IMG/VR virus record: IMGVR_UViG_3300044801_000147
Coordinates: 1-54,579 of that record
DNA from: a virus
Strand: one strand, 5' to 3'
DNA: 54,579 nucleotides
The notes beneath the pieces are model-generated. The model searched no databases and was not told the DNA's origin. It was given only the letters and a program-made list of their open reading frames with translations. This document shows, piece after piece, positions 8,466-37,406 of this stretch. How positions within the stretch are numbered: the stretch's first letter is position 1; each line of letters opens with the position of its first letter. A program made the translations under genes and the position numbers.

Positions 8466-9158
8466 TTGCTTCAGAGAAAATGCCCGCAGTGTGCTCAGGC
8501 CATAGACTACTCCAACTCGGGCAACTTCAACAGGGCGGAAAAGGCTAAAAGCCGCTGCAAGGTATGCACGGGGCTGGGGAGGTTCAAGCCTGACTTGGTA
8601 GGAAAGAGGTTTGGCAACTTAGTCGTGCTCAGCAAAATTGTCCCGTCCCCCAAACCCCACGTCTCCTCCTGGACCGTACGCTGCGATTGCGGCGAGGAGT
8701 GGGCTGTTTCAGGCGGCAGCCTTCGGAGCGGTGGGACCTCAAGATGCTGGACATGCAAGACCGTGGACAGCGGCAAAAAACGGCGGCGTTTCACCGACGA
8801 AGAAAAGTGGTGTCCCGCTTGCAGGGGTTGGCTACCGCTTGATAGGTTCGGGGTCAACCTAGCCCGCCCCAGCGGAAAAGCAGACCGCTGCAAGGTTCAC
8901 GCTCGGGCCGATTGGCACGCGTCTGAGTATAACCTTTCCCCAGAACAGTACGCCTCTATGCGGGCGAAGCAGGGCGGAAGATGCGCTATCTGCAACAGTG
9001 ATTTTAGTTTGTGCGTAGATCATAACCACAAGACGGGGTTTGTCAGAGGTCTTTTGTGCAGACGGTGCAACATGATGTTAGGTCATTTGAATGATGATGT
9101 TGCGGCTCTTGAACGCGCGATCCAGTACCTCCAAGCTGACTTTGCGGCGCAAGAGTAG
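8466..9158 (+). CDS. Endonuclease VII-type homing endonuclease
   Basis: A 230-aa protein starting at TTG 8466 after GGGGGTG. The order is: N-terminal zinc knuckle (CPQC...CKVC); one 'GKRFGNLVVL...RCDCG...CWTC' module of about 55 residues; a second Cys pair (CPAC); then a recombination endonuclease VII core, CAIC...CVDHNHKTG...RGLLCRRCN, with the DH catalytic pair and four zinc cysteines. Endonuclease VII proteins cut branched DNA; such fused versions behave as free-standing homing genes. It is squeezed between the zinc-ribbon gene and the portal and ends 10 nt before the portal ATG. Unlike the 19311 gene, its C-terminal helix is complete. Confidence 0.85.
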   Translation: MLQRKCPQCAQAIDYSNSGNFNRAEKAKSRCKVCTGLGRFKPDLVGKRFGNLVVLSKIVPSPKPHVSSWTVRCDCGEEWAVSGGSLRSGGTSRCWTCKTVDSGKKRRRFTDEEKWCPACRGWLPLDRFGVNLARPSGKADRCKVHARADWHASEYNLSPEQYASMRAKQGGRCAICNSDFSLCVDHNHKTGFVRGLLCRRCNMMLGHLNDDVAALERAIQYLQADFAAQE

Positions 9159-9168
9159 GGGATAGAGA

Positions 9169-11781
9169 ATGGCAGACGAGAAGAAGCCGACCGGGAAGCG
9201 CGAGAGGAACGGAAGCGTCAAAGTGGGGAAGGCCACGGAGACTCGCAAAGTCGCTAAGGTTGGCCTACAAGAGTATGCCAGCGCCGGACGTTATACTACG
9301 CTCAGCGAGGACGGCAAGAGCATCCAGGACGACGCCGCCTACCGCGGCCGCGTCCGCGCCATGCGCGGGCTGGCGGACTCCCTGCTCGGCACTGACCCCA
9401 CCATACAGACTGGCAAGACCGCAGGCGGCCTCTTCGGCGGCGACAGCGGCGTCGGGTACGCGGACATCGCGGACTCTAACAACATCGGCTACTACTCCTA
9501 CGAGTTCCCGGTCGACGCCCTTGAGCTCCCCGCGTCCCGCGCCGAGGAGCTGCGCTTCTACCGCCTCGCCTACGACCGCGACCCGATCGTCGGGCGGGCC
9601 ATCGACCTGCACACCGAGCTCCCGCTGTCCAAGATGGAGCTCTCCAAGCCGAAGTGCTCCTCCGAGGAGTACGCGGACTTCGTGTTCGACGAGTTCCAGC
9701 GTTTCGTCTCCAACACCAGGCTCTTCCAGCTCCTCATCGACGCCGTCCGCGAGTACTGGACGATCGGCGAGACGTTCATCTTCGTGGAGAAGCCGAACGA
9801 CATCGAGCCGTGCAAGGAGGCGCAGAAGATCATGGAGAAGGACGAGCCCGGCGACTCGTCCGAGCCAGGCAGGGAGTCCGAGTTCCACTCGCCCCTGGGC
9901 GGCACGTCTGACAGGATAATGGAGTACCTAGACCCGTCCAAGCGTTCCTCGTGGGTTGACAAGAACGCCTCCCTGATCGAGGAGATCAAGAAGGCCGGGC
10001 TAGGGTTCGACTTTTATGAGGACGCCAGCAAGGTAGGGCAGGAGGTCCAGAGGAAGAAGGCGGCGCTCAACAAGCGCACCCTCCAGATCGCGAAGACCGC
10101 AGGGGTTTCCGCGAGGACGCTGGCGAAGGTTATCATCGCGTCCGACCCGCTGGACCGTAGCAACATCGGCGTCCCGTTCAGCCGCGTGCTTGAGGCCCGC
10201 GCCAGGATGGCTAAGCTCATCAGCCGCATAGACAGGGACGACTCGCTCAACGCGCCGATCCAGGTCCAGGCGGACTTCACCAAGACGGCGCAGCCGCCAG
10301 CGGCCCCGGCCGCCCCGGCACCGCCTGCGGGCGACGCGGGGGCGGGAGCGCCTCCGGGCGCTGAGGCCGCCGCCCCAGGGGCGGAGGGAGCGCCGCTCGG
10401 CGACCCAGGGCTGGGAGACGTCGCGGGGGCGGGTGACCCAGGGGGCGCGGGAGCGCCGCCGATGGGCGGGGGCGGGGGCGGCATGTCCATCCCCGGAGAC
10501 ATGGCGGGCGAGGCGCAGGACGCCATCGCGGCGGGCGCGTCGGTCACGGCGCAGCGCGAGCTGATGGAGATGAAGCACCTCCTCAGGCTGATGGAGAAGA
10601 AGAAGGAGCTCCTTGAGGACCTGAAGGAGATACGCGAGAAGAAGCACGAGGAGCTTGAGCTGTTCTCGCACGTCACGAACAAGGACTACGACGGGCCGAC
10701 CAAGATTCAGATTCTCCCGCCCGAGCAGATGGAGGTCGTCAACGAGGGCCAGATGGAGGACGGGCCGACGATCTACTACAAGCCGCCGGAGGGCCAGAAG
10801 CAGTCCTACCTTGAGGACCCCGACGTGCCGTCCGAGGTGAAGGAGAAGATTCAGACAGAGGGCAAGATTCCGCTGAACCAGGACCCGATGAAGGGCTCCT
10901 ACGTCATCCACTTCGCCCGCAAGAAGTCCGGCTACGAGCTGCACGGCCGCTCGATCCTGCAACGTTGCATCCGCACGGTCATCTACCGCGAGAAGCTGCG
11001 CCAGGTGCAGAGCACCCTCGCGTCCCGCAACATGACGCCGAAGACCATGGTCATCGCGCCGGGCATCCCGACTTCCGAGGTCATGGCCCTCCGCGCACAC
11101 GTCGACGAGGCGAAGGCGGACCCGGACTACAGCGTCGTGCTGAACTACGAGGCCCGCTGGGACGAGATCGGCTCCGACGGCAGGCTGCTCGCGCTGGACG
11201 GCGAGTACAACCACACCAACTCCGACCTGGCGATCGGCCTCGGCCTCTCGCCGGAAATCCTGATCGGCGAGGGCATGTACTCCGGCAACAGAATACAGTT
11301 GGAAATTATGAACGTTTCATACGTACAATTTCGAGACCTCCTGACCACGCTGCTTGAGGACCTTGTTTTCAAGCCCTTCGCGATGGAAAAGGGGTTCTAC
11401 GAAATTGACAAATACGGGCGTCCCCGCTGGATTTTCCCGAAGGTGACGTTCAGCCGCATGGCGCTCCGCGACTCGGGTGACTTGTATGATATGTTGTTCA
11501 ATTTATACGCGAAGGGCTCGCTGCCTGTCGACATCATCTACGAGTTCCTCTCGATCGACGCCGAGGACGCGACCCGCAAGCTGGAGGACAACCTCTACAC
11601 GGTCAAGGACTCGAAGTTCAACGAAGTTTTGTCGAACATCTACAACAGCGTGGGCGAGTGGCTCATGGCCAACACCGACCTGGGCAAGAAGCTCGTCAAG
11701 GGCCTCCAGCTCTCCGAGACGGACCACGCCGAGGACCAGGGCGGGGAGGGCCCCGAGGGCAGCGGCGAGGGCATGGCTTAG
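9169..11781 (+). CDS. Portal protein (T4 gp20-like)
   Basis: An 870-aa protein expected to form the dodecameric ring at one capsid vertex through which DNA is packaged. The clip/stem-type sequence around residues 600-740 (RTVIYREKLRQVQ; MTPKTMVIAPG; GLGLSPEILIGEG) is typical of T4-type portals, as is the RDPIVGRAIDLH region near 140. Residues about 372-445 are an Ala/Gly/Pro-rich insert, probably a disordered loop. The length is greater than T4 gp20 (524 aa), partly because of this insert. From about 11281 (residue 705) the DNA turns AT-rich for some 240 bp, unlike the rest of the gene. A fragment of a second portal copy lies downstream at 12535-12790. Confidence 0.85.
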   Translation: MADEKKPTGKRERNGSVKVGKATETRKVAKVGLQEYASAGRYTTLSEDGKSIQDDAAYRGRVRAMRGLADSLLGTDPTIQTGKTAGGLFGGDSGVGYADIADSNNIGYYSYEFPVDALELPASRAEELRFYRLAYDRDPIVGRAIDLHTELPLSKMELSKPKCSSEEYADFVFDEFQRFVSNTRLFQLLIDAVREYWTIGETFIFVEKPNDIEPCKEAQKIMEKDEPGDSSEPGRESEFHSPLGGTSDRIMEYLDPSKRSSWVDKNASLIEEIKKAGLGFDFYEDASKVGQEVQRKKAALNKRTLQIAKTAGVSARTLAKVIIASDPLDRSNIGVPFSRVLEARARMAKLISRIDRDDSLNAPIQVQADFTKTAQPPAAPAAPAPPAGDAGAGAPPGAEAAAPGAEGAPLGDPGLGDVAGAGDPGGAGAPPMGGGGGGMSIPGDMAGEAQDAIAAGASVTAQRELMEMKHLLRLMEKKKELLEDLKEIREKKHEELELFSHVTNKDYDGPTKIQILPPEQMEVVNEGQMEDGPTIYYKPPEGQKQSYLEDPDVPSEVKEKIQTEGKIPLNQDPMKGSYVIHFARKKSGYELHGRSILQRCIRTVIYREKLRQVQSTLASRNMTPKTMVIAPGIPTSEVMALRAHVDEAKADPDYSVVLNYEARWDEIGSDGRLLALDGEYNHTNSDLAIGLGLSPEILIGEGMYSGNRIQLEIMNVSYVQFRDLLTTLLEDLVFKPFAMEKGFYEIDKYGRPRWIFPKVTFSRMALRDSGDLYDMLFNLYAKGSLPVDIIYEFLSIDAEDATRKLEDNLYTVKDSKFNEVLSNIYNSVGEWLMANTDLGKKLVKGLQLSETDHAEDQGGEGPEGSGEGMA

Positions 11782-11827: not shown

Positions 11828-12730
11828 ATGTTCATCTATCTAATCGTCAACCACGCGACTGGAAAGTACTACGTGGGGCAGCACAAGGGCAACAACCTTA
11901 GGAAGTACCTTCAGAAAAAGCTCTGGGCTGCAAAACACAAAGTTGCTGGAAGTTCACACCTGTTCAACTCAATGCGCAAATATCCAGATCACTCTATCTG
12001 GTCCGTCCACGCTCTCTTGTCCGATGTCCAAACTAAAGCTGAACTGGACCAGCACGAGCGCGACTTCATCGCTTTCCTCAAGTCCAGAGACCCGAAATAC
12101 GGTTACAACATCTGCCGTGGCGGTGAGGGAAACACTGGTTCACCCTCCGTAGAAACCCGTAAGAAGTTATCCGCCGCCAGCAAACGGTCTTGGAGTGACC
12201 CAGATATACGGAAGAGCCATCATGTAAAACTGCGAGGACGCAAGCAGCCTCCCGATGCGGTTGCCAAAATGAGAAACACCAGAAGAAGAAAGTACGGACA
12301 ATCTGGCTATCCGGGGTTAACTTCCTTCAAAGACATGACGGGCACAGTTGTCAACGGAATAAGCATTCTAAGCCGCTTGGCAAACGCCAAGGACGGGGCT
12401 GCGGTTTGGTTGTGCCGTTGCACGTGCGGGAAAGCCTTTCCGGCAAGGGCGTACTCCCTGCGCAGCGGACACACAAAAAGCTGCGGTTGCCTAAAGATCA
12501 GGCAAGATCAGGTCAACCTTAAACTGATACATCGCCGTGCAATGATCCCCAGGAAGCTGGTCGTCCCGCCCTGGTGCGGCGCGAGCGAGGTCATGGCGCT
12601 GCGGGCGCACATAGACGAGGCGGTCACCGACCCGGACTACTCCGTGGTCGTCTCCTACGAGTGCAGGTGGGACGAGGCGGACTACCGCGACCCGGAAGTC
12701 CCGCTGCGCCGCCAGATCAGAACCCCATGA
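11828..12730 (+). CDS. GIY-YIG homing endonuclease fused to portal fragment
   Basis: A 300-aa frame. Residues 1-95 are a GIY-YIG nuclease (IYLIVN...YYVGQH; GYNICRGGEG). Residues about 105-165 contain NUMOD3-like DNA-binding helices (SVETRKKLSAASKRSW). Residues 170-225 are one Cys module (WLCRCTCGK...SCGC). From about residue 240 the protein reads SEVMALRAHIDEAVTDPDYS, nearly identical to portal residues 643-662, so the last 60 residues are portal-derived. An AT-rich CAGTATTTAGTATGAG motif lies 8 nt before the ATG. The nuclease part looks intact; whether the portal tail is translated usefully is doubtful. Confidence 0.85.
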   Translation: MFIYLIVNHATGKYYVGQHKGNNLRKYLQKKLWAAKHKVAGSSHLFNSMRKYPDHSIWSVHALLSDVQTKAELDQHERDFIAFLKSRDPKYGYNICRGGEGNTGSPSVETRKKLSAASKRSWSDPDIRKSHHVKLRGRKQPPDAVAKMRNTRRRKYGQSGYPGLTSFKDMTGTVVNGISILSRLANAKDGAAVWLCRCTCGKAFPARAYSLRSGHTKSCGCLKIRQDQVNLKLIHRRAMIPRKLVVPPWCGASEVMALRAHIDEAVTDPDYSVVVSYECRWDEADYRDPEVPLRRQIRTP

Positions 12731-12790
12731 AAGCATAAGACTTGGCCTCGGCAGCGTCCCCGGAAAACGGCTTTCCGCGCACTAAGTAGG
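12535..12790 (+). pseudogene. Portal gene fragment
   Basis: The translation of this segment matches the portal around its SEVMALRAH and DPDYSVV motifs. After a frameshift it continues as H-x-S...LGLGSVP, matching the portal's NHTNSDLAIGLGLSP (11210-11260). Similarity stops at the position corresponding to portal GEGMYSG, which is where the intact portal gene turns AT-rich. The fragment is diverged at the DNA level, so it comes from a related but different portal allele or is old. The first two-thirds are in frame with the GIY-YIG gene. Confidence 0.7.
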
Positions 12791-12802
12791 GGAACCGCGC
12801 CT

Positions 12803-12862
12803 TGATCACAACTCTCGATACTCAGTCCTGGTCGCAGGAACCTGTTGAAAATAAAGGTTAGC
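12803..12862 (+). pseudogene. Ghost 5' end of the 13700 structural gene
   Basis: A TTG-started frame of 19 codons (MITTLDTQSWSQEPV...) ends in TAG. The intact downstream gene starts MITILDQVPWSQVLV. Nine of the first 15 positions are identical, including the W-S-Q triplet. AGGGGA precedes the TTG. This is a fossil of the structural gene's beginning, now separated from the functional start at 13700 by an HNH endonuclease gene. Confidence 0.6.
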
Positions 12863-12917
12863 GTCCTCGCAACGCTGCTGGAAACGCGATTTCCTCGCCA
12901 TAGGTAGGGAGTTGCCC

Positions 12918-13697
12918 GTGGTCATTTCTGTTCGCCAGCGAGAGGTCTTGTCCGCCCTAGTCCCTGGCGCTGATTTTTCGCCGTACTTCGCCTTCGTCGA
13001 GTCCCTGCCCGCAGTTGAAACCGGGCACAGGCACCACATCCTCCCGAGGAAAGAGTTCCCCGAGTTCGCCAAGGACCCGGGCAACATCGCTCGACTTTCT
13101 CCGACCGACCATCTCAAGGCCCACTACTGGCTCGCGGTGTGCGCCCCCGTCTACGAGCCATTCCAACTGGTGTTCTACCTCATGGCCAACAGGAAAAGGG
13201 CCTATCAAGTGAGCGTAAATGAGTTGCTGGAGTGTGCCGAGGTCTATGAGAGAGGTAGGGTGAGGCAGCTGGAGCAGGTCCGTAGTAGGTGCAAGGTTTT
13301 TGAGAGTGAACTTGTTGGAAGGCGGTTTGGGCGGCTGGCCGTGGTCGCCCTGAACGGTAGAGGAATCCACAGAGACAGCGCGTGGCTGTGCCGATGCGAT
13401 TGCGGGGCGGAAAAAACGATTGACAGAAGACGCCTGATGTCCGGGGACGCAAAAAGTTGTGGATGCTCTCGCTCCGGGTCACTGGTAGGACAGAGGTTTG
13501 GGAGGATGACGGTTTCCTCACGTCATCCGGATAACGGATCATACGGGCACACCCGTTGGGTCGCCAAGTGCGACTGCGGCACAGAAAAACCCGTCCTTGG
13601 GGCCTCTCTTTTGTCCGGAGTAACAAAAAGCTGCGGCTGTCTGCGGCAGGAAAACACCGCAAATCTAGCAAAAGTCCGTGCTGCCAGGGCCAGCTGA
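12918..13697 (+). CDS. HNH endonuclease with two Cys modules
   Basis: A 259-aa protein. I chose GTG 12918 because AGGGAG (12906-12911) lies 6 nt upstream; TTG 12912 is too close. Residues 30-75 hold an HNH-type core (GHRHHILPRKEFPEF...NIARLSPTDHLKAH). Two tandem 'VGxRFGR...CxCDCG...SCGC' modules follow, at about residues 130-190 and 190-250, each of about 55 residues with four cysteines and presumably DNA-binding. The gene stops 2 nt before the ATG of the giant structural gene and sits between that gene and a ghost copy of its own start. It is a typical free-standing homing nuclease of this window. Confidence 0.85.
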   Translation: MVISVRQREVLSALVPGADFSPYFAFVESLPAVETGHRHHILPRKEFPEFAKDPGNIARLSPTDHLKAHYWLAVCAPVYEPFQLVFYLMANRKRAYQVSVNELLECAEVYERGRVRQLEQVRSRCKVFESELVGRRFGRLAVVALNGRGIHRDSAWLCRCDCGAEKTIDRRRLMSGDAKSCGCSRSGSLVGQRFGRMTVSSRHPDNGSYGHTRWVAKCDCGTEKPVLGASLLSGVTKSCGCLRQENTANLAKVRAARAS

Positions 13698-13699
13698 CA

Positions 13700-16600
13700 A
13701 TGATAACGATTTTGGATCAGGTGCCTTGGAGTCAGGTTCTGGTGAGCGGCAACGGCGAGTTCGTCACCGTGCCGAACCCCCTCACGCCCTCGGGCGAGCT
13801 CTACGTCATCTCGAACGTGAGGACGGCCTCCAACTCCTTCGCCGTCCTGAAGTCCATCCCCGTGCCCCCGTCCCCCGGCCCAGGCGCTTCCTTCGAGACG
13901 AAGGCCACCTACGTCTTCAACGAGCCGAACACGGACTTCGACCCCGTGGCGGCGTACGACCCGGCCAACCAGCTGCTCCACATCCTCGGCACGCGCAACA
14001 CCCCGACCAACGGGTTCGGGTTCTCGTTCGGCTTCAACTTCGGCCAGGCGTTCGGGTCCAGCCCCCAGCTGAACGACCTGATCAAGTTCACGTTCGACAC
14101 GAACACCAACAACCTGACGGGCCCCTTCGTGCTCAGCACGGGCGCGAGGATCAGGGGCTCCTACGACATCGCCGTCCTCCCGAACTCCAACGTCGTGGTC
14201 GGGGTGTGCCTCGCCGACCCGATCCTCGCGGTCGCCGGGATCGCCAGCGTTGACGTGCACGGCAACGTGGCCACGGTGACCTTCACGGTCCCGCTCGCCA
14301 CGCCCTACGCGCCCGGGCAGTGGGTCCTGGTAGACGGCCTGACGAACGCCACGTTCCTGAACGGCCAGCTCCTCCAGGTGCTCACGGCGAACGCGACGCA
14401 GTTCACCGCGCCCTACGGCACGGGCGGCTTCGGCCTCATCTTCGGCGCTAGGTTCGGCGCGGGCTTCGCCTACGGCCCTACGGCCGAGCCGTCGGGCGCT
14501 ACCGCGTCCCCCGTCGGCGAGAGCCTGCTCGCCATGGAGCTCACCCCGTCCAGCGTCGTGGTGCCGGGCACCGCCGTGATCCTGGACAGCTCCCCGTCGC
14601 GCACGGGCAACTCGTTCGACGCCGTGTCCCTGGTCGCCCCGCCGCTGACCCGGAACGTCGAGCTTTACTACCAGACGCACCCGAAGAACATCACCTTCCA
14701 GGACCAGCTCTTCACCGTCGCCCTGTTCAACCGGGCCGCCGGGACCTGGGACCCCGCGCCGACGGTCCTAACCACGTTCCCCGCACGCTGGGCGGACGAC
14801 CGCCTCACCGTGCTCCAGGACACGGCGGGCAACCGCTACATGTCCCAGACGTACTGGACGCAGCTCAACCACCCGGAGGGGATCGTCGGCAACGCCTTTC
14901 TCGGCTTCCGCCCCGCCGGGGGCTTCGGGTACGGCTTCGGCTTCAACTTCGGCAACGGGCAGACCAACGACTGGCTCTTCCACCCCACGTTCGGCACGAC
15001 CGTGGGCGGCTCCATCATCCAGGGCACGCTCTCCGTCGACGAGAACCTGGACGTCAGCTACATCTACCTGCTCCAGCCGTTCGACCAGATACCAGCGCCG
15101 CCGTCCGCGATAGCCTGGCCGCTGCACGTGGCGTCCGTGGCGATCCCGTCCCTCAACCTGACCGAGGTGCCGGGCTTCTACAACGGCCTGAACCTCACAT
15201 GGGTGCGGGGTACCAAGAGCCTTGTCGACGACCTGTCCGCGTGGGCCGTCGTCGGCGAGACGGAGGGGGCGCTGCCTCCCTCGCCGACCACCGTCCCGCT
15301 GTACGTCAGCCTGTTCAACGTGCCCCCGATCGCCAACGTGAAGCCGCCCGTCGTGACCCTGTGGCGCAACAACACGTGGTGGGCCACGGACGTCAGCCTG
15401 GCCACGAGTTTCGCCGTCGCCTCCGGCGTGGTCACGGTGCAGGCCGCCAACGACTTCGTCCCCGGCGAGGCGGTCGCGGTCTGGGGCTTCCAGAACCCGC
15501 CCAACGAGTTCCTCAACGGCACCGTCCTGACCGTGCTCACGGCCAACGCCACGTCGTTCACCGCCGCCCTCGCGCACGCCAACTACACGTTCGTGCCCGG
15601 CGGCTTCGGCTTCGGCCTGATGTTCGGCCTCGGATTCGGCGGGACGGACGCGGGCTACGTCGCGCTCCTCGAGCCCGGCCCGCTCGTGCTCGACGCCAGC
15701 GGCTCCACGTCCCCGAGCCTTGACCCGCTCGGCTTCACCTGGACCGAGAACTACCCGGGCGCGGGCGTCACGATCGCCCCGACCCCCTCCGGCTCCATGG
15801 CCGAGCTGACCGTCGCGGACTCCGTGGGCGGCCCCGGCTTCGTGTTCGACGTAGGGGTGGCCGTCACCGATACCGCGTCCCCGCACCCGCCCGCGACCGC
15901 GACCGTGGTCTCGGTCTCCGGCGGCACGGTCACGTTCACGATCAACAACGCGCCCGACTCGCTGCCGCTCCTGCCGTTCGCGCCCCGCGAGCAGGTCATG
16001 CCGTACGACATCGCGGTCGCCTACGGCTTCGGCCTCAGCTTCGGGCTGAACTTCGGCGACGCCGACAACTCCGCGCTGGGGTTCCTGAACGACCGGGTGC
16101 TCACCGTGCTGGCGACCCCGCCCCCGACGTCTACGTCGTTCTCCGCGCTGTGCTCCCCAGGCAGCTTCTCCGGGACGGTGCCCGTCACGGGCTTCGTGAT
16201 GCCGCAGTTCCAGTTCGCGCAGACCGTGGTCACGGTGCCGACGAACGTCGCCCCCACGGTCACGTTCCCCAACTCCTCGTGGTCCGGCTTCGGCAACGTC
16301 TTCGGCTTCTTCTTCGGTGAGGGGCCGTACCTGGACATCGCCAGGAACACGACGTTCACCGTCACGCCGAACACGCCGCTCCTGGCGAACCAGTACCCCG
16401 TGGTCTACACGGGGCTGACGGACCCGGACGACGTCCCTACGTTCTCGTGGGTCCAGACCTCCGGCACGACCGTGGCCATGAGCGGCACGACGTCCCCGAG
16501 CGTCACGATCAGCACCGCCGGGGCGAACATCCTCGGGGAGACGCTCACCTTCCAGGCGGCCGTGGACGACGGCGTCAACCCGACCGCGACCGCGTCCTTC

Positions 16601-18562
16601 TCCGTCAACGTCCCGGCCTACGCCTACGCTGGGGGCAGGGACTCGCTCCAGCTCTCGCGCTCGACCTGGGGCCTCGGCGGCTTCGGCCTCAACTTCGGCC
16701 TCAACTTCGGCAACGCCGCCGCGCCCATCAGCCAGCGCAACACGCCAGGGGCGTGGTCCCCACTGGACGTCTCCGTCATCTACACCGACCTGGAGAGCGT
16801 GAGGCGCGTCTCCGTGCTCGACGGCAGCGACCGCTACATCGTGGTCTCGCCGTACAGCGTGCTCGTCTACGGCATCTACCCGTCCACGAGCCCGCAGGCC
16901 GTGCTCCTGCGCGTCCTGCTCACGCCGAACGGCACCCTCATCCAGGACGCCGTCCACGCCGAGGAGGACTACACCCTGGTCCTGGACAGCGCGGGGACGG
17001 TCTACCGCTACACCACCGCCCCGAACTTCTACACGGACGCCCCGGACACCTCCTTCGACCTGGCCGACATCTCCACCCTGTCCTTCGTGGACGAGGAGCT
17101 GGACAATGACGTCCGCATCCTCACGACGCAGAGCTTCCTCGGCCAGAGGGTGCTCGTGTTCTCCGGCGAGCAGGGTGCGCTGCTCCTCCAGGCGTCGACC
17201 GCCACCCTCGCGCCGGGCAGCTTCCTGGAGCTCACGACGGCCACCCACTTCCTGTACGGGTGCGACAAGGTGCAGTTCGTGCGCTGGGTCGGGATGGAGA
17301 ACCTCGGCTCCGGCGACGTGCTCCTCGGCACCGTGGCCAACGACACGGCGGAGATCACGGGCGTCGCCATCGCCTCCGGGACGTTCGCGGGCAGCCCCGT
17401 CGGCCCGAACACCCTGCTGGTCACGGCGGCCAACGACTTCGCGGCGGGCGAGGTGGTGGTGCTGTCGGGCCTCACCGCCGCCCCGACCCTGGTGAAGAAC
17501 GCCCTGAACGGCATGTACTGCACGGTCGTGTCCGCCAGCTCGTCGGCCTTCATCGCGTACATGGACGACGAGCACGTCCCGCAGCCCCCGGCGACCTACC
17601 CCGTCTCCCCGGAGACCGGGATCGCGGTGTCCCAGGACAGCGGCACCACGTACGAGTCCCTCATCAGCCTCGCGAACAAGGCGATCATCGGCGCGTGGGA
17701 CAAGTCGAAGCTCAAGAACCAGTTCGTGAACACGGGCGAGATACTGTTCGACCCCGACACGACCTACGCGGGCAGGCCGATCCCGCCCGCCCTCGCCCCG
17801 CTGTCGTTCCAGCTCAGCGGGACGAACGCCAACATCGCGCTCCGCTGGGTCCAGCAGCGTGCCGACCTCGTCGGCGGCTACACGGTCCAGGTCGGCACCG
17901 AGACCGTCCTGAACACCCCGGTCCCGGCCGCCCCGTACCAGTTCCAGGTGCCCGTCTCCCTGTACTTCTTCGACGCCAACGTGAGCGTCACTGACGTCAC
18001 GATCCAGACGGCCTCCGTCACGCTGGTCAGCGAGGCCACGCAGCAGGGCGGCTTCGGCCTGAACTTCGGCGTCGGCTTCGGCCTGGAGAGCGTCGTGACC
18101 TTCACGGCGGCCAACACCTTCACGGAGGGCCAGCAGGTCGTCCTCAGCGGCCTGACCTTCGCGACGTGGCTCAACGGCGTCCCGCTGACCGTCCTGACCG
18201 CGAGCCCGACCCAGTTCCAGGTCGTGGACCCGACCTCGCACACGCCGTTCGCGGCCATGCCGGAGACCGGGACGGCGGTCGGCTCCCTGAACATCCCGCT
18301 GGCGTTCGTGCCCTACGCGCCGGGGCCTGGGCAGTATACGGTGTCCCCGGCGGGGCTGTACACGTTCAACGCGGCGCAGTCCGGGCACAGCGTCAACATC
18401 GGCTTCATCCAGCTGTTCCGCACCGTCGCCAACGTGGTGTCCGGCGGGGTGCAGAACGTGACCGTGCAGCTCCCTGCCGGGCCGACGTACTTCTTCCAGG
18501 TGGAGGCGACGTCCCTGGACGGCGCGTCCGGCTACTCAAACATCCAGGAGATAACGACTTAG
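13700..18562 (+). CDS. Giant tail/fibre protein with FG-rich cassettes
   Basis: A 1620-aa beta-rich virion-type protein, rich in T, V, G, A and N with very few charged residues. At least four copies of an 80-residue beta module occur (hallmark: TAANDF..G..V.L.GLT.A.FLNG..LTVLTA..TQFTA). Eight short FG cassettes of the form GGFGLNFGLNFGN are inserted in loops (near 14020, 14424, 14925, 15600, 16022, 16288, 16670, 18048). Ig-like segments lie between (around 16390-16610). The start ATG 13700 follows the HNH stop by 2 nt; the first 40 nt are AT-richer than the rest. No signal peptide is seen. Probably a tail fibre or decoration protein; no enzyme motif was recognised. Confidence 0.75.
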   Translation: MITILDQVPWSQVLVSGNGEFVTVPNPLTPSGELYVISNVRTASNSFAVLKSIPVPPSPGPGASFETKATYVFNEPNTDFDPVAAYDPANQLLHILGTRNTPTNGFGFSFGFNFGQAFGSSPQLNDLIKFTFDTNTNNLTGPFVLSTGARIRGSYDIAVLPNSNVVVGVCLADPILAVAGIASVDVHGNVATVTFTVPLATPYAPGQWVLVDGLTNATFLNGQLLQVLTANATQFTAPYGTGGFGLIFGARFGAGFAYGPTAEPSGATASPVGESLLAMELTPSSVVVPGTAVILDSSPSRTGNSFDAVSLVAPPLTRNVELYYQTHPKNITFQDQLFTVALFNRAAGTWDPAPTVLTTFPARWADDRLTVLQDTAGNRYMSQTYWTQLNHPEGIVGNAFLGFRPAGGFGYGFGFNFGNGQTNDWLFHPTFGTTVGGSIIQGTLSVDENLDVSYIYLLQPFDQIPAPPSAIAWPLHVASVAIPSLNLTEVPGFYNGLNLTWVRGTKSLVDDLSAWAVVGETEGALPPSPTTVPLYVSLFNVPPIANVKPPVVTLWRNNTWWATDVSLATSFAVASGVVTVQAANDFVPGEAVAVWGFQNPPNEFLNGTVLTVLTANATSFTAALAHANYTFVPGGFGFGLMFGLGFGGTDAGYVALLEPGPLVLDASGSTSPSLDPLGFTWTENYPGAGVTIAPTPSGSMAELTVADSVGGPGFVFDVGVAVTDTASPHPPATATVVSVSGGTVTFTINNAPDSLPLLPFAPREQVMPYDIAVAYGFGLSFGLNFGDADNSALGFLNDRVLTVLATPPPTSTSFSALCSPGSFSGTVPVTGFVMPQFQFAQTVVTVPTNVAPTVTFPNSSWSGFGNVFGFFFGEGPYLDIARNTTFTVTPNTPLLANQYPVVYTGLTDPDDVPTFSWVQTSGTTVAMSGTTSPSVTISTAGANILGETLTFQAAVDDGVNPTATASFSVNVPAYAYAGGRDSLQLSRSTWGLGGFGLNFGLNFGNAAAPISQRNTPGAWSPLDVSVIYTDLESVRRVSVLDGSDRYIVVSPYSVLVYGIYPSTSPQAVLLRVLLTPNGTLIQDAVHAEEDYTLVLDSAGTVYRYTTAPNFYTDAPDTSFDLADISTLSFVDEELDNDVRILTTQSFLGQRVLVFSGEQGALLLQASTATLAPGSFLELTTATHFLYGCDKVQFVRWVGMENLGSGDVLLGTVANDTAEITGVAIASGTFAGSPVGPNTLLVTAANDFAAGEVVVLSGLTAAPTLVKNALNGMYCTVVSASSSAFIAYMDDEHVPQPPATYPVSPETGIAVSQDSGTTYESLISLANKAIIGAWDKSKLKNQFVNTGEILFDPDTTYAGRPIPPALAPLSFQLSGTNANIALRWVQQRADLVGGYTVQVGTETVLNTPVPAAPYQFQVPVSLYFFDANVSVTDVTIQTASVTLVSEATQQGGFGLNFGVGFGLESVVTFTAANTFTEGQQVVLSGLTFATWLNGVPLTVLTASPTQFQVVDPTSHTPFAAMPETGTAVGSLNIPLAFVPYAPGPGQYTVSPAGLYTFNAAQSGHSVNIGFIQLFRTVANVVSGGVQNVTVQLPAGPTYFFQVEATSLDGASGYSNIQEITT

Positions 18563-18613: not shown

Positions 18614-19225
18614 ATGAGCATCGTACTCGGCAACAAGATCACAACTTTGATGGTAAGCGCCGCAAACGGAGACACTTACGGCGACCAGGAGCGCCACATT
18701 TTCCGTGGCATCCAGGCATTCTTCATGCCCAACGTCGAGAACATGACCCTCGCCACGCCCCCCGGCTCGCCCACGAACGGCGACATGTACGTGGTCGCGG
18801 TCTCCCCGACGGGAGCCTGGGTCGGCCAGACGAACAACATCGCGTACTGGGCGATCGACCCGCAGGACGGCGTCGCCACCACTGGCATCTGGGAGTTCTA
18901 CACTCCGCAGATCGGCTGGACCGTGTTCGACAACAACTCGCTCCTGACCTGGAAGTTCAACGGCACCGTCTGGCTCTGGACGAAGCAGATCGGGACCGCG
19001 GCATTCCCCGCCGCGACGAGCATCGCCGTGCCGTTCACCGCGACCTACGTCGGGACTCAGCCAAACGGACCCGCCGTGACGGTGACCGCACTCAACGCTG
19101 ATCCGAGCGCGGCTGGTGGAATTTGGGTTGTCCCAACGGGCGGACCTGGCGCGTGGACAGGCTTCACGCTTTGGGCCACGGACGTCAACTCGCTCACGTT
19201 CAACTACGTCGTCGAAGGTTATTAA
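18614..19225 (+). CDS. DUF2793-like tail protein
   Basis: A 203-aa protein starting at ATG 18614 with AAGAGAGG 7 nt upstream. Residues 45-110 match the pattern of DUF2793 found in phage tail and fibre proteins: PPGSPTNGDMYVV, PTGAWVGQTNNIAYW, WEFYTPQIGWTV. The C-terminal part is a beta-rich segment with many T, V and G. It probably accompanies the upstream giant protein in the tail tip or fibre. A 51-nt leader contains CAGTATTTGAAGAG, one of several AGTATT motifs. A strong hairpin follows the stop codon. Confidence 0.75.
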   Translation: MSIVLGNKITTLMVSAANGDTYGDQERHIFRGIQAFFMPNVENMTLATPPGSPTNGDMYVVAVSPTGAWVGQTNNIAYWAIDPQDGVATTGIWEFYTPQIGWTVFDNNSLLTWKFNGTVWLWTKQIGTAAFPAATSIAVPFTATYVGTQPNGPAVTVTALNADPSAAGGIWVVPTGGPGAWTGFTLWATDVNSLTFNYVVEGY

Positions 19226-19261: not shown

Positions 19262-19310
19262 GCTGAATACATAATTGCCAAAAAGGGTTCGACACTCAGT
19301 ATTAGTGAGC

Positions 19311-19853
19311 ATGTCGTTTTCCCCCGAGCACAGAAGAAAGCTGAGCGAGGCCCGCAAAGACCCCTCCATAAACTGGAAGGCTGGGTCCAGCAAGCTCAAG
19401 TCCCTGGGCATCTCTCCCGAGACAGTGAAACAACAGCGGGACGCCGGGTTCCGTTTCTGCCGCGAGCACAATTCTTTCCTCTCCTCTAGCTCTTTCTTGA
19501 AATACGACGACACCTATCTGTGCCTGCTGTGTAAACAGGACCGCACGGCCCACAAAAAATACGGAACGCCTCCAGGCTGGTACAAGCATAAATTTGAGGA
19601 GCAAAACGGCACCTGTTTTCTGTGCGGGAATCCGCCGCAGGGCAGGATGCGGACGCTATGCGTGGATCACGATCATTCCTGCTGCAAGGGAGGCTCCTCC
19701 TGCGGCAAGTGCGTCCGTGGCCTTCTGTGTAATCACTGCAACCTCGTTTTGCAGGTATTAGACAACTCAGAATGGCTGAACGGCTCGACGAGCGCAATCC
19801 CGCCGCTCTGCGGTGGGTTAGCGAGTGCCTTTTGCGGTATTAAAAACTTATGA
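19311..19853 (+). CDS. Endonuclease VII-type HEG, 3' end replaced by TnpB element
   Basis: About 180 aa from ATG 19311, which follows CAGTATTAGTGAG closely. The N-terminus [14 protein letters not shown] is NUMOD3-like. A zinc pair (CLLC) precedes the endonuclease VII core: CFLCG...[12 protein letters not shown]...[14 protein letters not shown], with the DH catalytic pair and an extra CC...C insert. The usual terminal helix is missing. From about 19799 the frame runs into the left-end hairpin of the TnpB element and reads [12 protein letters not shown] before stopping inside the tnpB start (ATGA). The core looks intact; activity after loss of the last helix is uncertain. Confidence 0.75.
19799..19817 (+). 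repeat. Left-end hairpin of TnpB element
   Basis: 8-bp stem (one G-T) with TCT loop; typical subterminal hairpin of IS605-type ends. It is translated as the new C-terminus of the truncated endonuclease VII gene. Confidence 0.6.
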
Positions 19854-20893
19854 TCCAGTGCCAACTCAAACTTCGACCCTGCAAGGCTCAGGAGAAAACC
19901 TGCGACCAATGGCTCTACCATCTGGCGTCGGTCTACAATTTCGCCGTGAGGAAGATTGAGCTAAACGCCAAGGACAAAATCTACTTCTCCAAACTGGAGT
20001 TCCAGAATCTTTTGGCGAACCACGGGCAACGACTTGATATTCCGTCGCACGCGCTACAGGGCGTTCTTTGTACCGTCCATGATGCGTGGAAGCGCTGCTT
20101 CAGGAAAATCGCTGGCAAGCCTCGGCTCAAGGGGATGCGGAAGCTAACGAGCATTCCGTTTCCAGACCCAATCAAGGCACCAAAAGGAAACCGCATCACA
20201 TTGCCCGGACTTGGCAGCCTTCGTTTCCATGGGCAAGAATTGCCAGAAGGAGTTATCAAATGCGGGCGCTTGGTCAAGCGTGCATCAGGATGGCACCTGT
20301 GCCTGTTCATAGCAGCGGACCCAAAAGCGATTGAGAGAGCGGCGTTCGGAGAAATCGGCATAGACCCCGGCTTCTCGAATCTGCTCACAACATCTGACGG
20401 GGAAATCATCGAGCACCCACGGGAGTTGGAAGCTTCGGCAGAACGCCTAGCGCAGGCACAGCGGGGGCACAACAAAACGTTGGCAGCAAGGATTCAAGAG
20501 CGCATAGCCAACCGCAAAAAGGACAGGAACCATAAGCTAACGACGCGATTGGTTGCAGAGAACGTGCTGATCGCGTGGAGCAAAGACAAAATCAAAGGAA
20601 TCGCAAAAAGGTTCGGGAAGAGCGTGAGCAGTTCGGCGCACGCGGAGATTCGAGGGATGTTGTCCTACAAAATGCCCATAAGCGGTGGGACGTTCGTCGA
20701 GACTGATTCCAAGTATTCCACCAAGACTTGCAGCGAATGCGGGAGCCAATCTGGTGGTCCTTCAGGGTTTGCAGGCTTGTCGGTAAGGCACTGGAGTTGT
20801 CCGTGTGGAGCGGAAAACGAGCGGGATGTTAATGCGGCTCGTAACACTCTAATTGCCGGGGTCGGATTGACCCACGAGGTGGCGTATGCCTAA
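19850..20893 (+). CDS. TnpB RNA-guided nuclease
   Basis: A 347-aa protein, normal length for IS605 TnpB. The RuvC-like catalytic acids are all present: D172 in GIDPGFSN, E237 in [11 protein letters not shown]326 in ERDVNAARN. The zinc ribbon CSECG...CPCG is at about 297-323. The N-terminal helical domain starts [12 protein letters not shown]. TnpB cuts DNA next to a short TAM motif using an omega RNA made from the 3' part of its own gene and the right end; here that RNA would run to about 20933 and take its guide from the lysozyme 5' region. The start overlaps the upstream stop (ATGA) and the end overlaps the lysozyme frame by 8 nt. Confidence 0.92.
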
Positions 20894-21375: not shown

Positions 21376-21891
21376 ATGTGCCGACGCGTAAAGGGGAGCC
21401 GTAATCGTGCGAAGGCAACGCTTGTTGTATCCAGAGTGCACGAACGTATTGCAAACCTACGGGGCAACTTTGCCCACCAACTAACACACAGTCTGGTATC
21501 GAAGTATCCGGCGCTGTGTCTTGAAAATTTAAGCATTGAAGGTCTTGCGAAAACCAAACTGGCTAAATCAATGCTCGATGCCGCATTCGGAGAAACCGTT
21601 CGTCAGTGGAAATATAAGTCGCGCTGGAACAACACTCATGCCGTCCAAGCCGACAGGTTCTTCCCGAGTACGAAACTGTGCAGCGAATGCGGATACAAGA
21701 ACAACAACCTAAGTCTTTCAGACAGAGAGTGGACTTGTCCTGCTTGTGGGACATACCACAGCAGGGACGGCAACGCATCTCTAAACCTGAAAGCAGAGGG
21801 TATCAGAATTCTCGACGCCTTGGGATACATGGAGTCGTTAAACGACTGCGGACAGTGTGTCAGTCTTGCGAAAGCAAGCAACGCTGGTTGA
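21376..21891 (+). pseudogene. TnpB C-terminal remnant
   Basis: A 171-residue frame equal to the second half of a TnpB. KGSRNRAK and HERIANLRGNFAHQL are the helix before the RuvC-II strand; CLENLSIEGL carries the catalytic Glu. The zinc ribbon CSECG...CPAC and SRDGNASLNL with the last Asp follow. The N-terminal domain and the first catalytic Asp are missing, so it cannot cut alone. It differs from the 19850 protein. Its 3' sequence and right end match the 36291 element, so it belongs to that second family. The deletion joins it directly to the lysozyme 3' end, 10 nt after the stop codon. Remnants that keep the right end may still make an omega RNA. Confidence 0.85.
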
Positions 21892-21953: not shown

Positions 21954-22515
21954 CTGCTACATCCAAGTAAACCCGATCTAAGGTGAAATCGATGCTCACG
22001 ACCATGGAGGACTGCGCCGGGGGAGGGGCGACCAGGGGCGTCAGGATCGGGTGGGTGAGGTTGTTCGGCTGGTTCCCGGGGTCGGGGGAGTAGGTCACAG
22101 AGACCACGCCGTCGGCGTAGCACACGCCTCTCGGCAGGAAGCCCTGGACCGAGCCGTTGTAGTTGTTCGCCAGGGCGTTGGTATCCCCTAAAACGAACAG
22201 CATCCAGAGGGGAAGCTGCCCGGCGGTCAGGACCGGGACGCTCTGGTCCAGAATCGCCAGGGCGGCGGGGGAAAGCAGTACTAGACCGTAGGTCGGGAAG
22301 GCGGGCGTGCTGCCACGGTAGGTTCCGAACGCCTCGGTGAACCAGGAGGCCCTCGGGGTGTCCGGCTGGAGCACGCCGACGCGGTAGTAGCTGCCGTCGA
22401 ACGCGAAGCCGGTGTGCTGGTTATCCCCCAAATCGGGGAAATAAAAAGAATCATCCGTTCGTTTTTCGATCGTGCAGGAGGCGACGATGTTCTGGTCTAT
22501 GAAGTCGTATGCCAT
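21949..22515 (-). CDS. Leftward tail-type protein, truncated by element end
   Basis: About 188 aa from ATG 22515 (AGGA 8 nt upstream); a GTG at 22563 would add 16 residues and overlap the HNH leader. The sequence MAYDFIDQNIVAS...FYFPDL, repeated prolines and aromatic residues, and SIDFTLDRVYLDV look like a virion protein, but I do not recognise a family. It is the only leftward gene in the tail cluster. Its stop codon (TCA on the plus strand, 21949-21951) lies inside the TnpB right end GTATCAA, so the element has replaced the natural C-terminus. Inversion of this gene together with element activity is possible. Confidence 0.6.
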   Translation of the reverse strand: MAYDFIDQNIVASCTIEKRTDDSFYFPDLGDNQHTGFAFDGSYYRVGVLQPDTPRASWFTEAFGTYRGSTPAFPTYGLVLLSPAALAILDQSVPVLTAGQLPLWMLFVLGDTNALANNYNGSVQGFLPRGVCYADGVVSVTYSPDPGNQPNNLTHPILTPLVAPPPAQSSMVVSIDFTLDRVYLDVAV

Positions 22516-22594
22516 ATTCCCCGTCCTACTCAAGGACTTTGCTAGTTCGGAAAACTTCACCAACTACGGTCCCTCCTTGGTAGGGGAACAAGAG

Positions 22595-23359
22595 ATGGGC
22601 ACGTTCAAAGACTTGACGGGTATGCGGTTTGGCTTGTGGTTCGTCACCGCTAGGGCTGAGTCGCAGAACGGCAAGACGCTGTGGCGAGTCCGCTGCATTT
22701 GCGGGGCGGAGAAAGAAGTTCTCGGCTACAGCCTTGCGTCTGGAGTTTCTAAGAGCTGCGGATGTGCCTCCGGCAGGATCAAAGCGGCCAAAATGCAGAA
22801 ACGCATCAACCTGATCAACCAGCGGTTTGGCAGGCTGTGGGTCGTTGCGCGGGCGGGATCAATCAGGTACGGGAAGAGCACTTCGTCAAACTCTTTGTGG
22901 GAGTGCAAGTGCACCTGCGGAAATATCATCACGGTCACGGGGAAATCACTCCGCGCTGGAACGACGAAAAGCTGCGGGTGCCTACACGCTGACATGACTT
23001 GCCTGGCCCCCGGACAGTCGGGGTTTAACACCCTGCTGAGCGTGTATAAAGTTCACGCTGAAAAAAGAGGGTTCATTTGGGAGCTGACAGACGAGCAGTT
23101 CCGCACCCTTGTGAGCGGGGCCTGTCATTACTGCGGACAGCAGCCTAGCCAAGTTTCCGTGAAGTGGTCAGAGAACGGGCAGTTCGTTTACAACGGCATT
23201 GACAGGCTGAACAACGCGGTTGGGTACACGCTTGGGAACACCGCTCCCTGTTGCGGGCCGCACAATCGGATGAAGGGCACGATGTCGGTGGAAGAGTTCA
23301 TAGAGCAGTGCCGCAAGGTCGCGTCGCGCTTCGGCATCTCTAAGTCAGTGGGGTTGTAA
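22595..23359 (+). CDS. HNH endonuclease with two Cys modules
   Basis: A 254-aa protein starting at ATG 22595 with AGGGG upstream. Two 'RFG...W.C.C.CG...SCGC' modules cover about residues 5-60 and 70-130, followed by a linker and an HNH core: CHYCG near 185, YNGIDRLNNAVGYTLGNTAPCC with the D/N pair near 205, and CGPHNRMKGTMS near 228. This type of HNH ('YNGIDR.N...GY...N..PCC..CN..K') is common in phages as a free-standing gene. It lies divergent to the leftward tail gene and ends 3 nt before the next ATG. A truncated relative of its HNH core lies at 53744. Confidence 0.87.
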   Translation: MGTFKDLTGMRFGLWFVTARAESQNGKTLWRVRCICGAEKEVLGYSLASGVSKSCGCASGRIKAAKMQKRINLINQRFGRLWVVARAGSIRYGKSTSSNSLWECKCTCGNIITVTGKSLRAGTTKSCGCLHADMTCLAPGQSGFNTLLSVYKVHAEKRGFIWELTDEQFRTLVSGACHYCGQQPSQVSVKWSENGQFVYNGIDRLNNAVGYTLGNTAPCCGPHNRMKGTMSVEEFIEQCRKVASRFGISKSVGL

Positions 23360-36290: not shown

Positions 36291-37406
36291 ATGCTGACCT
36301 ACAAATATAAACTCGAACCCAACAGGAAACAAAAGCAGTTGCTCCTTCAGCAGTTGGATTTGTGTCGGGGTCTATATAACCTACTGCTCGAACAGAGGCA
36401 GTACCAACGTATCGGACAGTTTGAGCAGATGCGGCAACTCACAGAACTCAAGCAGGCGTTCCCCGAGTACAAGAACTGCCATGCTCACATGTTGCAGAAC
36501 GTGGTCAAGCGATTGGATAGGGCCTTTCAGGGATTCTTTAGACGTATCAAGGCTGGAGTCAAAGCAGGCTATCCGAGGTTCAAAAACAGGGACAGATTTA
36601 ACAGCCTGTTGTTTTCAGATGGTTGCAAGTTAGAAGGCAAGAAGTTGTCAGTTTCAAAAGTTGGCAACATCAAGGTACGGTTGAGCCGCAAACTACCCGC
36701 TGATGCTGTAGTAAAAACTTGTTCCATCAAGCGAACGGTTAGCGGATGGTTTGCTATGCTCACGTTTGAGAGCCTTCCTGTATTTCTGCCGAAGTCTAGC
36801 AAGAAAATTGGCGTGGATGTTGGCATCACACAGTTTGCAGCATTGTCGAACGGGAAGTTTGTGCCTAACCCAAGGTTCTATCAGAACGCCCAAGCCGAAC
36901 TACGTAGAGCACAACGAAAGGTTGCACGCAGAACCAGCAAGAAGTCCAATCGCCGTCATAAAGCAGTTGTCCTGTTGCAGAAAGTTCATGCACAGATTGC
37001 GAATCGAAGGATGGATTTCCTGCACAAAGAAAGCACCAAGTTGGTTCGCAAGTACGGAACTATTATTGTCGAAGCATTGAACGTTGCTGGGATGTCAAGA
37101 GGCAGATTAGCAAAGCAGATTTTAGATTGCAGTTGGTCGGAGTTCTTCAGAATGGTGTCCTACAAAGCCGAAAATGCTGGCAGGATAAAACCAGAAGAAC
37201 CCGCTCCGTACACAAGTCAGAAGTGCCCCGAGTGTGGCTTTGTCCATCGCGATAACAGGAAAACACAAGCAGAGTTTGAGTGCCTTTCCTGTGGTCATAA
37301 AGATAATGCTGACACGAACGGAGCACGCAACATTTTAGCAAACTACTTGGCTCGGATAGCGCCATCATCCGTTAACGTAAGAGAGGTAATGCTATGCGTA
37401 GGGTGA
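36291..37406 (+). CDS. TnpB RNA-guided nuclease
   Basis: A 371-aa intact TnpB with an excellent SD (AAAGGAGG, 5 nt before ATG). The N-terminal domain has YKYKLEPNRKQKQLL and the YNLLLEQR helix typical of the family. RuvC acids are D176 (GVDVGITQF), E261 (IIVEALNVAGM) and D341 (DNADTNGARN). The zinc ribbon is CPECG...CLSCG. The omega RNA should span the gene's 3' end to the hairpin at 37449-37469 and read its guide from CTCATGGCCAATGG. It differs strongly from the 19850 TnpB, so at least two families invaded this phage. Confidence 0.93.
   Translation: MLTYKYKLEPNRKQKQLLLQQLDLCRGLYNLLLEQRQYQRIGQFEQMRQLTELKQAFPEYKNCHAHMLQNVVKRLDRAFQGFFRRIKAGVKAGYPRFKNRDRFNSLLFSDGCKLEGKKLSVSKVGNIKVRLSRKLPADAVVKTCSIKRTVSGWFAMLTFESLPVFLPKSSKKIGVDVGITQFAALSNGKFVPNPRFYQNAQAELRRAQRKVARRTSKKSNRRHKAVVLLQKVHAQIANRRMDFLHKESTKLVRKYGTIIVEALNVAGMSRGRLAKQILDCSWSEFFRMVSYKAENAGRIKPEEPAPYTSQKCPECGFVHRDNRKTQAEFECLSCGHKDNADTNGARNILANYLARIAPSSVNVREVMLCVG

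Follow-up and report, generated by a model that had tools for sequence, protein, structure and literature searches.

FG cassettes in a virion protein of a soil jumbo phage as probable docking pegs for a DUF2793 receptor-binding fibre

The virion protein encoded downstream of the portal gene in a soil jumbo phage carries eight short cassettes of the form GFGxxFGxxFG. By analogy with the solved hub–fibre pair of phage JBD30, each cassette is probably a docking peg for a receptor-binding fibre, and the protein that bears them is probably a scaffold carrying many fibres encoded by the neighbouring gene. This likely function is identified from the homology of siphophage hub tails to a solved interaction, together with the exact co-occurrence of the peptide with one gene. 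The multi-peg scaffold appears to be a new version of a known attachment principle, and the open literature that was searched contained no account of the motif.

Cassettes of the scaffold protein and their setting

The window, an IMG/VR virus contig of 54,579 bases analysed here in full, derives from a soil jumbo phage, and its genes include those for a DNA polymerase, a portal, a baseplate-J protein and an endolysin. Relatives of the portal were found on contigs of up to 463 kb and in the Tunturiibacter phage Tunturi_5, a 309-kb myovirus of Acidobacteriota (PMC11924767). The scaffold (Table 1) shows homology along most of its length with the gene lying directly or nearly after the portal in these jumbo phages; DNA and protein searches of phage isolates and IMG/VR with the full scaffold gene returned Tunturi_5 or nothing. 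Among the relatives, L129 and L130 contain FG cassettes, some at sites shared with the window and some at different ones, and the scaffold homologue of L140 contains a single cassette. A tree computed with the cassettes masked groups the window with L129 and L130 (support 100/100).

Table 1. Positions in the window of the scaffold gene, its eight cassettes (candidate pegs) and the two associated genes
Feature	Position	Strand	Description
Portal gene	9169..11781	+	anchor of the conserved order portal - scaffold
Scaffold gene	13700..18562	+	1,620 aa, beta-rich virion protein with eight cassettes; homologue of Tunturi_5 gp8 'minor tail protein'
Peg 1	14012..14044	+	GFGFSFGFNFG, aa 105-115
Peg 2	14426..14458	+	GFGLIFGARFG, aa 243-253, end of beta-module copy
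Peg 3	14921..14953	+	GFGYGFGFNFG, aa 408-418
Peg 4	15608..15640	+	GFGLMFGLGFG, aa 637-647, end of second beta-module copy
Peg 5	16025..16057	+	GFGLSFGLNFG, aa 776-786
Peg 6	16286..16318	+	GFGNVFGFFFG, aa 863-873
Peg 7	16679..16711	+	GFGLNFGLNFG, aa 994-1004
Peg 8	18050..18082	+	GFGLNFGVGFG, aa 1451-1461, beyond modelled part
Partner gene	18614..19225	+	203 aa, DUF2793 tail-fibre / receptor-binding protein, predicted peg occupant; PF10983, E 2.4e-17

All eight cassettes match GFGxxFGxxFG exactly and lie in the single frame of the scaffold gene. A six-frame search of the window yields no further match, and none to the reversed pattern. No tripeptide of the protein is more over-represented than GFG, with 12 copies against 0.97 expected from composition. 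In the alignment of homologues every cassette is an insert, at a position where most homologues have nothing, and the beta module that holds cassettes 2 and 4 has further copies, in the 39308 and 44910 genes, that lack it. Pfam detects only a PKD domain in the protein. An AlphaFold2 model of residues 1-1100, built from 14 sequences, is weak (mean pLDDT 58.5) and places seven of the seven modelled cassettes in coil with pLDDT below 50; this supports a position in loops but does not prove it, since gappy alignment columns favour such an outcome. Foldseek searches with the same weak model gave only low TM-scores, many of the matches being to sialidase-type propellers.

These results agree with most of what an earlier sequence-only reading had described, namely eight FG cassettes in this gene, always in loops (seven modelled, in a weak model), and copies of the beta module elsewhere that lack them; core strands, which would have contradicted that description, are not what the weak model displays at the cassettes. 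The likeness to FxFG nucleoporins that it had pointed out holds for Phe-Gly composition only. FG nucleoporins have long disordered FG-repeat regions with hydrophilic spacers, whereas the window has short cassettes between the predicted beta strands (weak model) of a folded protein, beside a dedicated partner gene. No sign was seen of the cassettes being a site of diversification, as had also been suggested, reverse-transcriptase systems lying outside this search.

The peptide and its partner gene in siphophages and jumbo phages

Narrowed to GFG[LIFVM][DN]FGxxFG, the pattern occurs in 61 IMG/VR stretches, many of them in hub proteins of siphophages. These FG hubs are baseplate-hub (J-like) proteins of PHROG 1101 / Pfam Phage-tail_3. 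Their FG peptide comes after the final strand of the terminal domain and is either the C-terminus itself (GFGLDFGNFFGGVQA) or followed by about 440 further residues. In type B hubs the peg is internal and the partner gene is present. Elsewhere in the family the hubs have other endings, and two such loci carry the FG tail on the next protein. A tblastn search with the 20-aa FG tail gave no match. A profile of the hub domain including the FG tail matches chain o of PDB entry 8rk3, the JBD30 hub gp53, with an E value of 8e-40, and the alignment reaches the end, pairing the FG tail with HGLGFRLGEELGGVS of JBD30 (8rk3_o). In JBD30, the C-terminus of gp53 docks in the centre of the alpha-helical bundle of the receptor-binding protein (RBP) gp54 trimer (PDB 8rk3; PMC11445458). 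The docked C-terminus is GLGFRLGEELGG. The PDB annotates the RBP of JBD30 as DUF2793, and it is matched by a profile of window-type partners (8rk3_a, E 5e-5). In a model of the hub domain the last eight residues of the FG tail have pLDDT values below 50, which fits a tail that depends on a partner but does not prove it.

The window shares with the JBD30 pair a peptide of the same form (GLGFRLGEELGG in JBD30) and a neighbouring gene for a partner of the DUF2793 family, the adjacency on the siphophage side being that of the JBD5 gene order. It differs in that each Phage-tail_3 hub of the JBD30 type bears a single peg, with Leu, at its free C-terminus, whereas the window has eight internal pegs with Phe in an unrelated beta-rich scaffold. 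In uncultured soil siphophages (PHROG 1101; L172, L051, L176 and others), the FG hub tail GFGLDFGNFFGG is nearly identical to the cassettes and a DUF2793 gene is adjacent, but there is a single copy per protein. Because the cassettes are internal loops of another protein and not the C-terminus of a J-like (Phage-tail_3) hub, we class the system as working like a JBD30-type pair and not as a member of that type.

The FG peptide was also observed at the extreme N-terminus of a 704-aa phage protein (MATGFGLDFGFNFGL; L181:6915-9026, minus strand) and, in a Nitrospirae genome, as the C-terminal end of an F5/8-type tail protein (L215:2151-3263, minus strand); neither has a DUF2793 neighbour in the available stretch. 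A related FG hairpin (TGFGFNLGFNFGFGG) is found at one fixed place in Dit-like minor tail proteins (L409, L411, L428, L433, L458 and others). It came to light in a scan of IMG/VR with the reversed pattern (66 stretches), which was meant as a null and was rejected as such because it caught this hairpin. The hairpin aligns with TGLQWTDGLDWGVGG of Streptomyces phages and no DUF2793 partner was found for these proteins; on both grounds it is treated as a separate element.

Clustering of the genes downstream of hubs returned one family, found at 22 FG hub loci and absent from all seven non-FG hub loci. The gene next to the scaffold in the window encodes a protein with the matching N-terminal segment. 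A profile built from the siphophage proteins alone recovers this protein (E 3e-31) as well as its counterparts in L140 (2e-37), L130 (1e-31) and L129 (2.5e-21), each adjoining the FG gene, and has no match in the jumbo relatives that lack FG. The partner lies upstream of the FG gene in L129 and L130 and downstream in the window and L140. It adjoins an FG gene on the same strand in 59 of 60 partner loci, a count that is biased because most loci were collected with the FG pattern; in the 60th, the end of the locus cuts the FG frame short.

Three samples were collected independently of the FG pattern, by hub homology, by portal or scaffold homology, and by partner domain. Eight hub loci gathered by hub homology have both FG and the partner and seven have neither (p=1.6e-4, a value that overstates independence, as do such p-values generally here, because the samples contain related genomes). 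Among whole jumbo records gathered by portal or scaffold homology, DUF2793 exceeds the cut-off in 4/4 records with FG and in 0/15 others, one of the latter having a sub-threshold match. For isolates gathered by partner domain, the peg was sought in its general form, G[FWYL]Gxx[FWYL]Gxx[FWYL]G, a period-4 alternation of hydrophobic residue and glycine. Exactly one peg is present in 9 of the 17 isolates, in every case no more than 15 residues from the hub C-terminus (JBD5, GLGFRLGEELGG; BL4, GLGNNLGNYLGG; BcepNazgul, GWGLNWGNDFGG; Seifer, GYGNSYGFSYG; and others), against a background of none in about 270,000 aa outside the scaffold. The hubs of the other eight have no peg of this form. These are of two main sorts, one Chi-like and the other mostly from Rhodobacter and relatives, with a partner that has another N-terminus. 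In L476 (Chi), L487 (Redjac) and L490 (JS26), the Chi-like hubs beside a DUF2793 fibre have Trp residues four apart at the end (GWSLSWDHGW, GKWGINWDHDW), which may be a Trp-based version of the peg that lacks the glycines.

Proposed docking and the alternative explanations

We propose that this peptide, a C-terminal hub tail in several siphophage groups, has been amplified to eight copies in surface loops of a beta-rich scaffold, which would replace the usual single hub tail. Each cassette would receive the N-terminal bundle of a DUF2793 fibre trimer, which predicts room for as many as eight such trimers on a scaffold chain. For the window itself, we infer the docking of the cassettes with the neighbouring protein, the trimeric state of that protein and the occupation of the pegs. 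Such an account, the most economical one, would explain the fixed spacing of the peptide, its loop position, the tolerated changes of site and the all-or-none link to the partner. It counts against the proposal that the known peg is a free C-terminus that enters axially, because an internal loop must be enclosed by the bundle; hubs that have an internal peg together with an intact partner suggest that such enclosure is possible. Eight pegs served by one small gene could result in partial occupancy, and the eight DUF2793-bearing isolates with a peg-less hub, like the relatedness of genomes within the samples, also weigh against the proposal.

In the Ackermannviridae, tail-spike branching uses folded spike domains, whereas in the window a short peptide is repeated on a single scaffold, beside what is, as far as the data go, a single partner gene. 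The two would be alike in bringing several receptor-binding trimers together, which in the Ackermannviridae make up one branched complex (PMC11414711). On the docking reading, a short linear motif would predict the attachment points of fibre trimers and be recognisable in siphophages and jumbo phages alike, and an eight-site protein would give a phage a novel means of displaying receptor-binding proteins in number, at a stoichiometry open to direct test.

It is unlikely that the cassettes serve as general stickers, in which case exposed Phe-Gly loops would attach to the host envelope through many weak contacts and not through a dedicated partner. Their many copies, the loop positions that differ between relatives and the aromatic-glycine make-up would suit such a role, but the spacing is strict, the peptide is present or absent together with one partner gene, and a docking role has been solved for the homologous tail. 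The stickiness or condensation motif put forward in the sequence-only reading is accordingly less likely than specific docking, since the presence of the peptide follows one partner gene exactly.

Equally improbable is a structural role, with the loops forming contacts between subunits within the scaffold or representing tolerated expansions, and with the link to the partner reflecting shared ancestry of a gene block. The Dit-like proteins, which have related FG hairpins and no partner, lend something to the structural version, and adjacent genes could travel together. This explanation is at odds, however, with the occurrence of the peptide beside the same partner in two different proteins, scaffold and hub, with the side taken by the partner gene, which in L129 and L130 is opposite to that in the window and L140, and with the shift of the peptide to the next gene within one hub family, where the partner remains beside the peptide.

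A DNA element spreading by in-frame insertion at many sites is highly improbable: insertions at new sites are clean and cassette 7 is at the DNA level a 12-bp tandem repeat (16681-16711), but synonymous codons are no more alike between cassettes than the codon usage of the gene predicts (codon identity at identical residues 0.81, with 0.75 expected; p=0.12), the codons for this peptide differ in relatives, and other genes show no enrichment, the FG peptide being concentrated in the scaffold gene both in the window and in the relative G001. Copies alike in DNA beyond codon usage and spread over several genes, as expected of such an element, were thus not found. The cassettes are conserved as protein and not as DNA, and are for that reason not a recent mobile element. 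From the earlier suggestion of a spreading peptide element there survives a functional peptide that recurs in loops and in unrelated tail proteins; the DNA-level spread, and the recent copying looked for by comparing cassette DNA, do not.

SPP repeats in related scaffolds

The docking-peg reading of the GFG cassettes may have a counterpart in relatives of the scaffold. SPP is the top tripeptide of the scaffold homologue in L131, L133, L134, L138, L360, L373 and L375 (7-13 copies against about 1 expected), and these relatives have neither FG cassettes nor a DUF2793 gene. The serine codons of SPP belong to both classes. Most of the SPP excess falls in the scaffold gene in L133 and L134, and L131 has six tandem SPPx units (SPPLSPPMSPPYSPPLSPPLSPPL) in the loop equivalent to that of cassette 3 of the window. 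The coincidence of FG and SPP sites exceeds uniform chance at some tolerances only (p 0.015-0.04) and does not exceed that of random loops (p ~0.96), so we make no claim of site sharing.

The idea that SPP is a second kind of peg leads to a tentative and rather doubtful extension, in which the scaffold would be a peg-board with interchangeable loop peptides, GFG for the DUF2793 fibre in one clade and SPP for a different appendage in relatives. If this were true, the appendage set would change through the exchange of short loop peptides. The genes beside SPP scaffolds are mostly homing endonucleases, and hence no SPP partner was found.

Genes of the homing-endonuclease or endonuclease VII type also crowd the portal - scaffold - fibre region of the window (8466-9158, 11828-13697, 19275-19853 and 22472-23359) and lie between portal and scaffold in relatives as well. 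Three transposase frames of PHROG 506 are present in the window, at 19850-20893, 21376-21891 and 36291-37406, the second of which covers the C-terminal part only.
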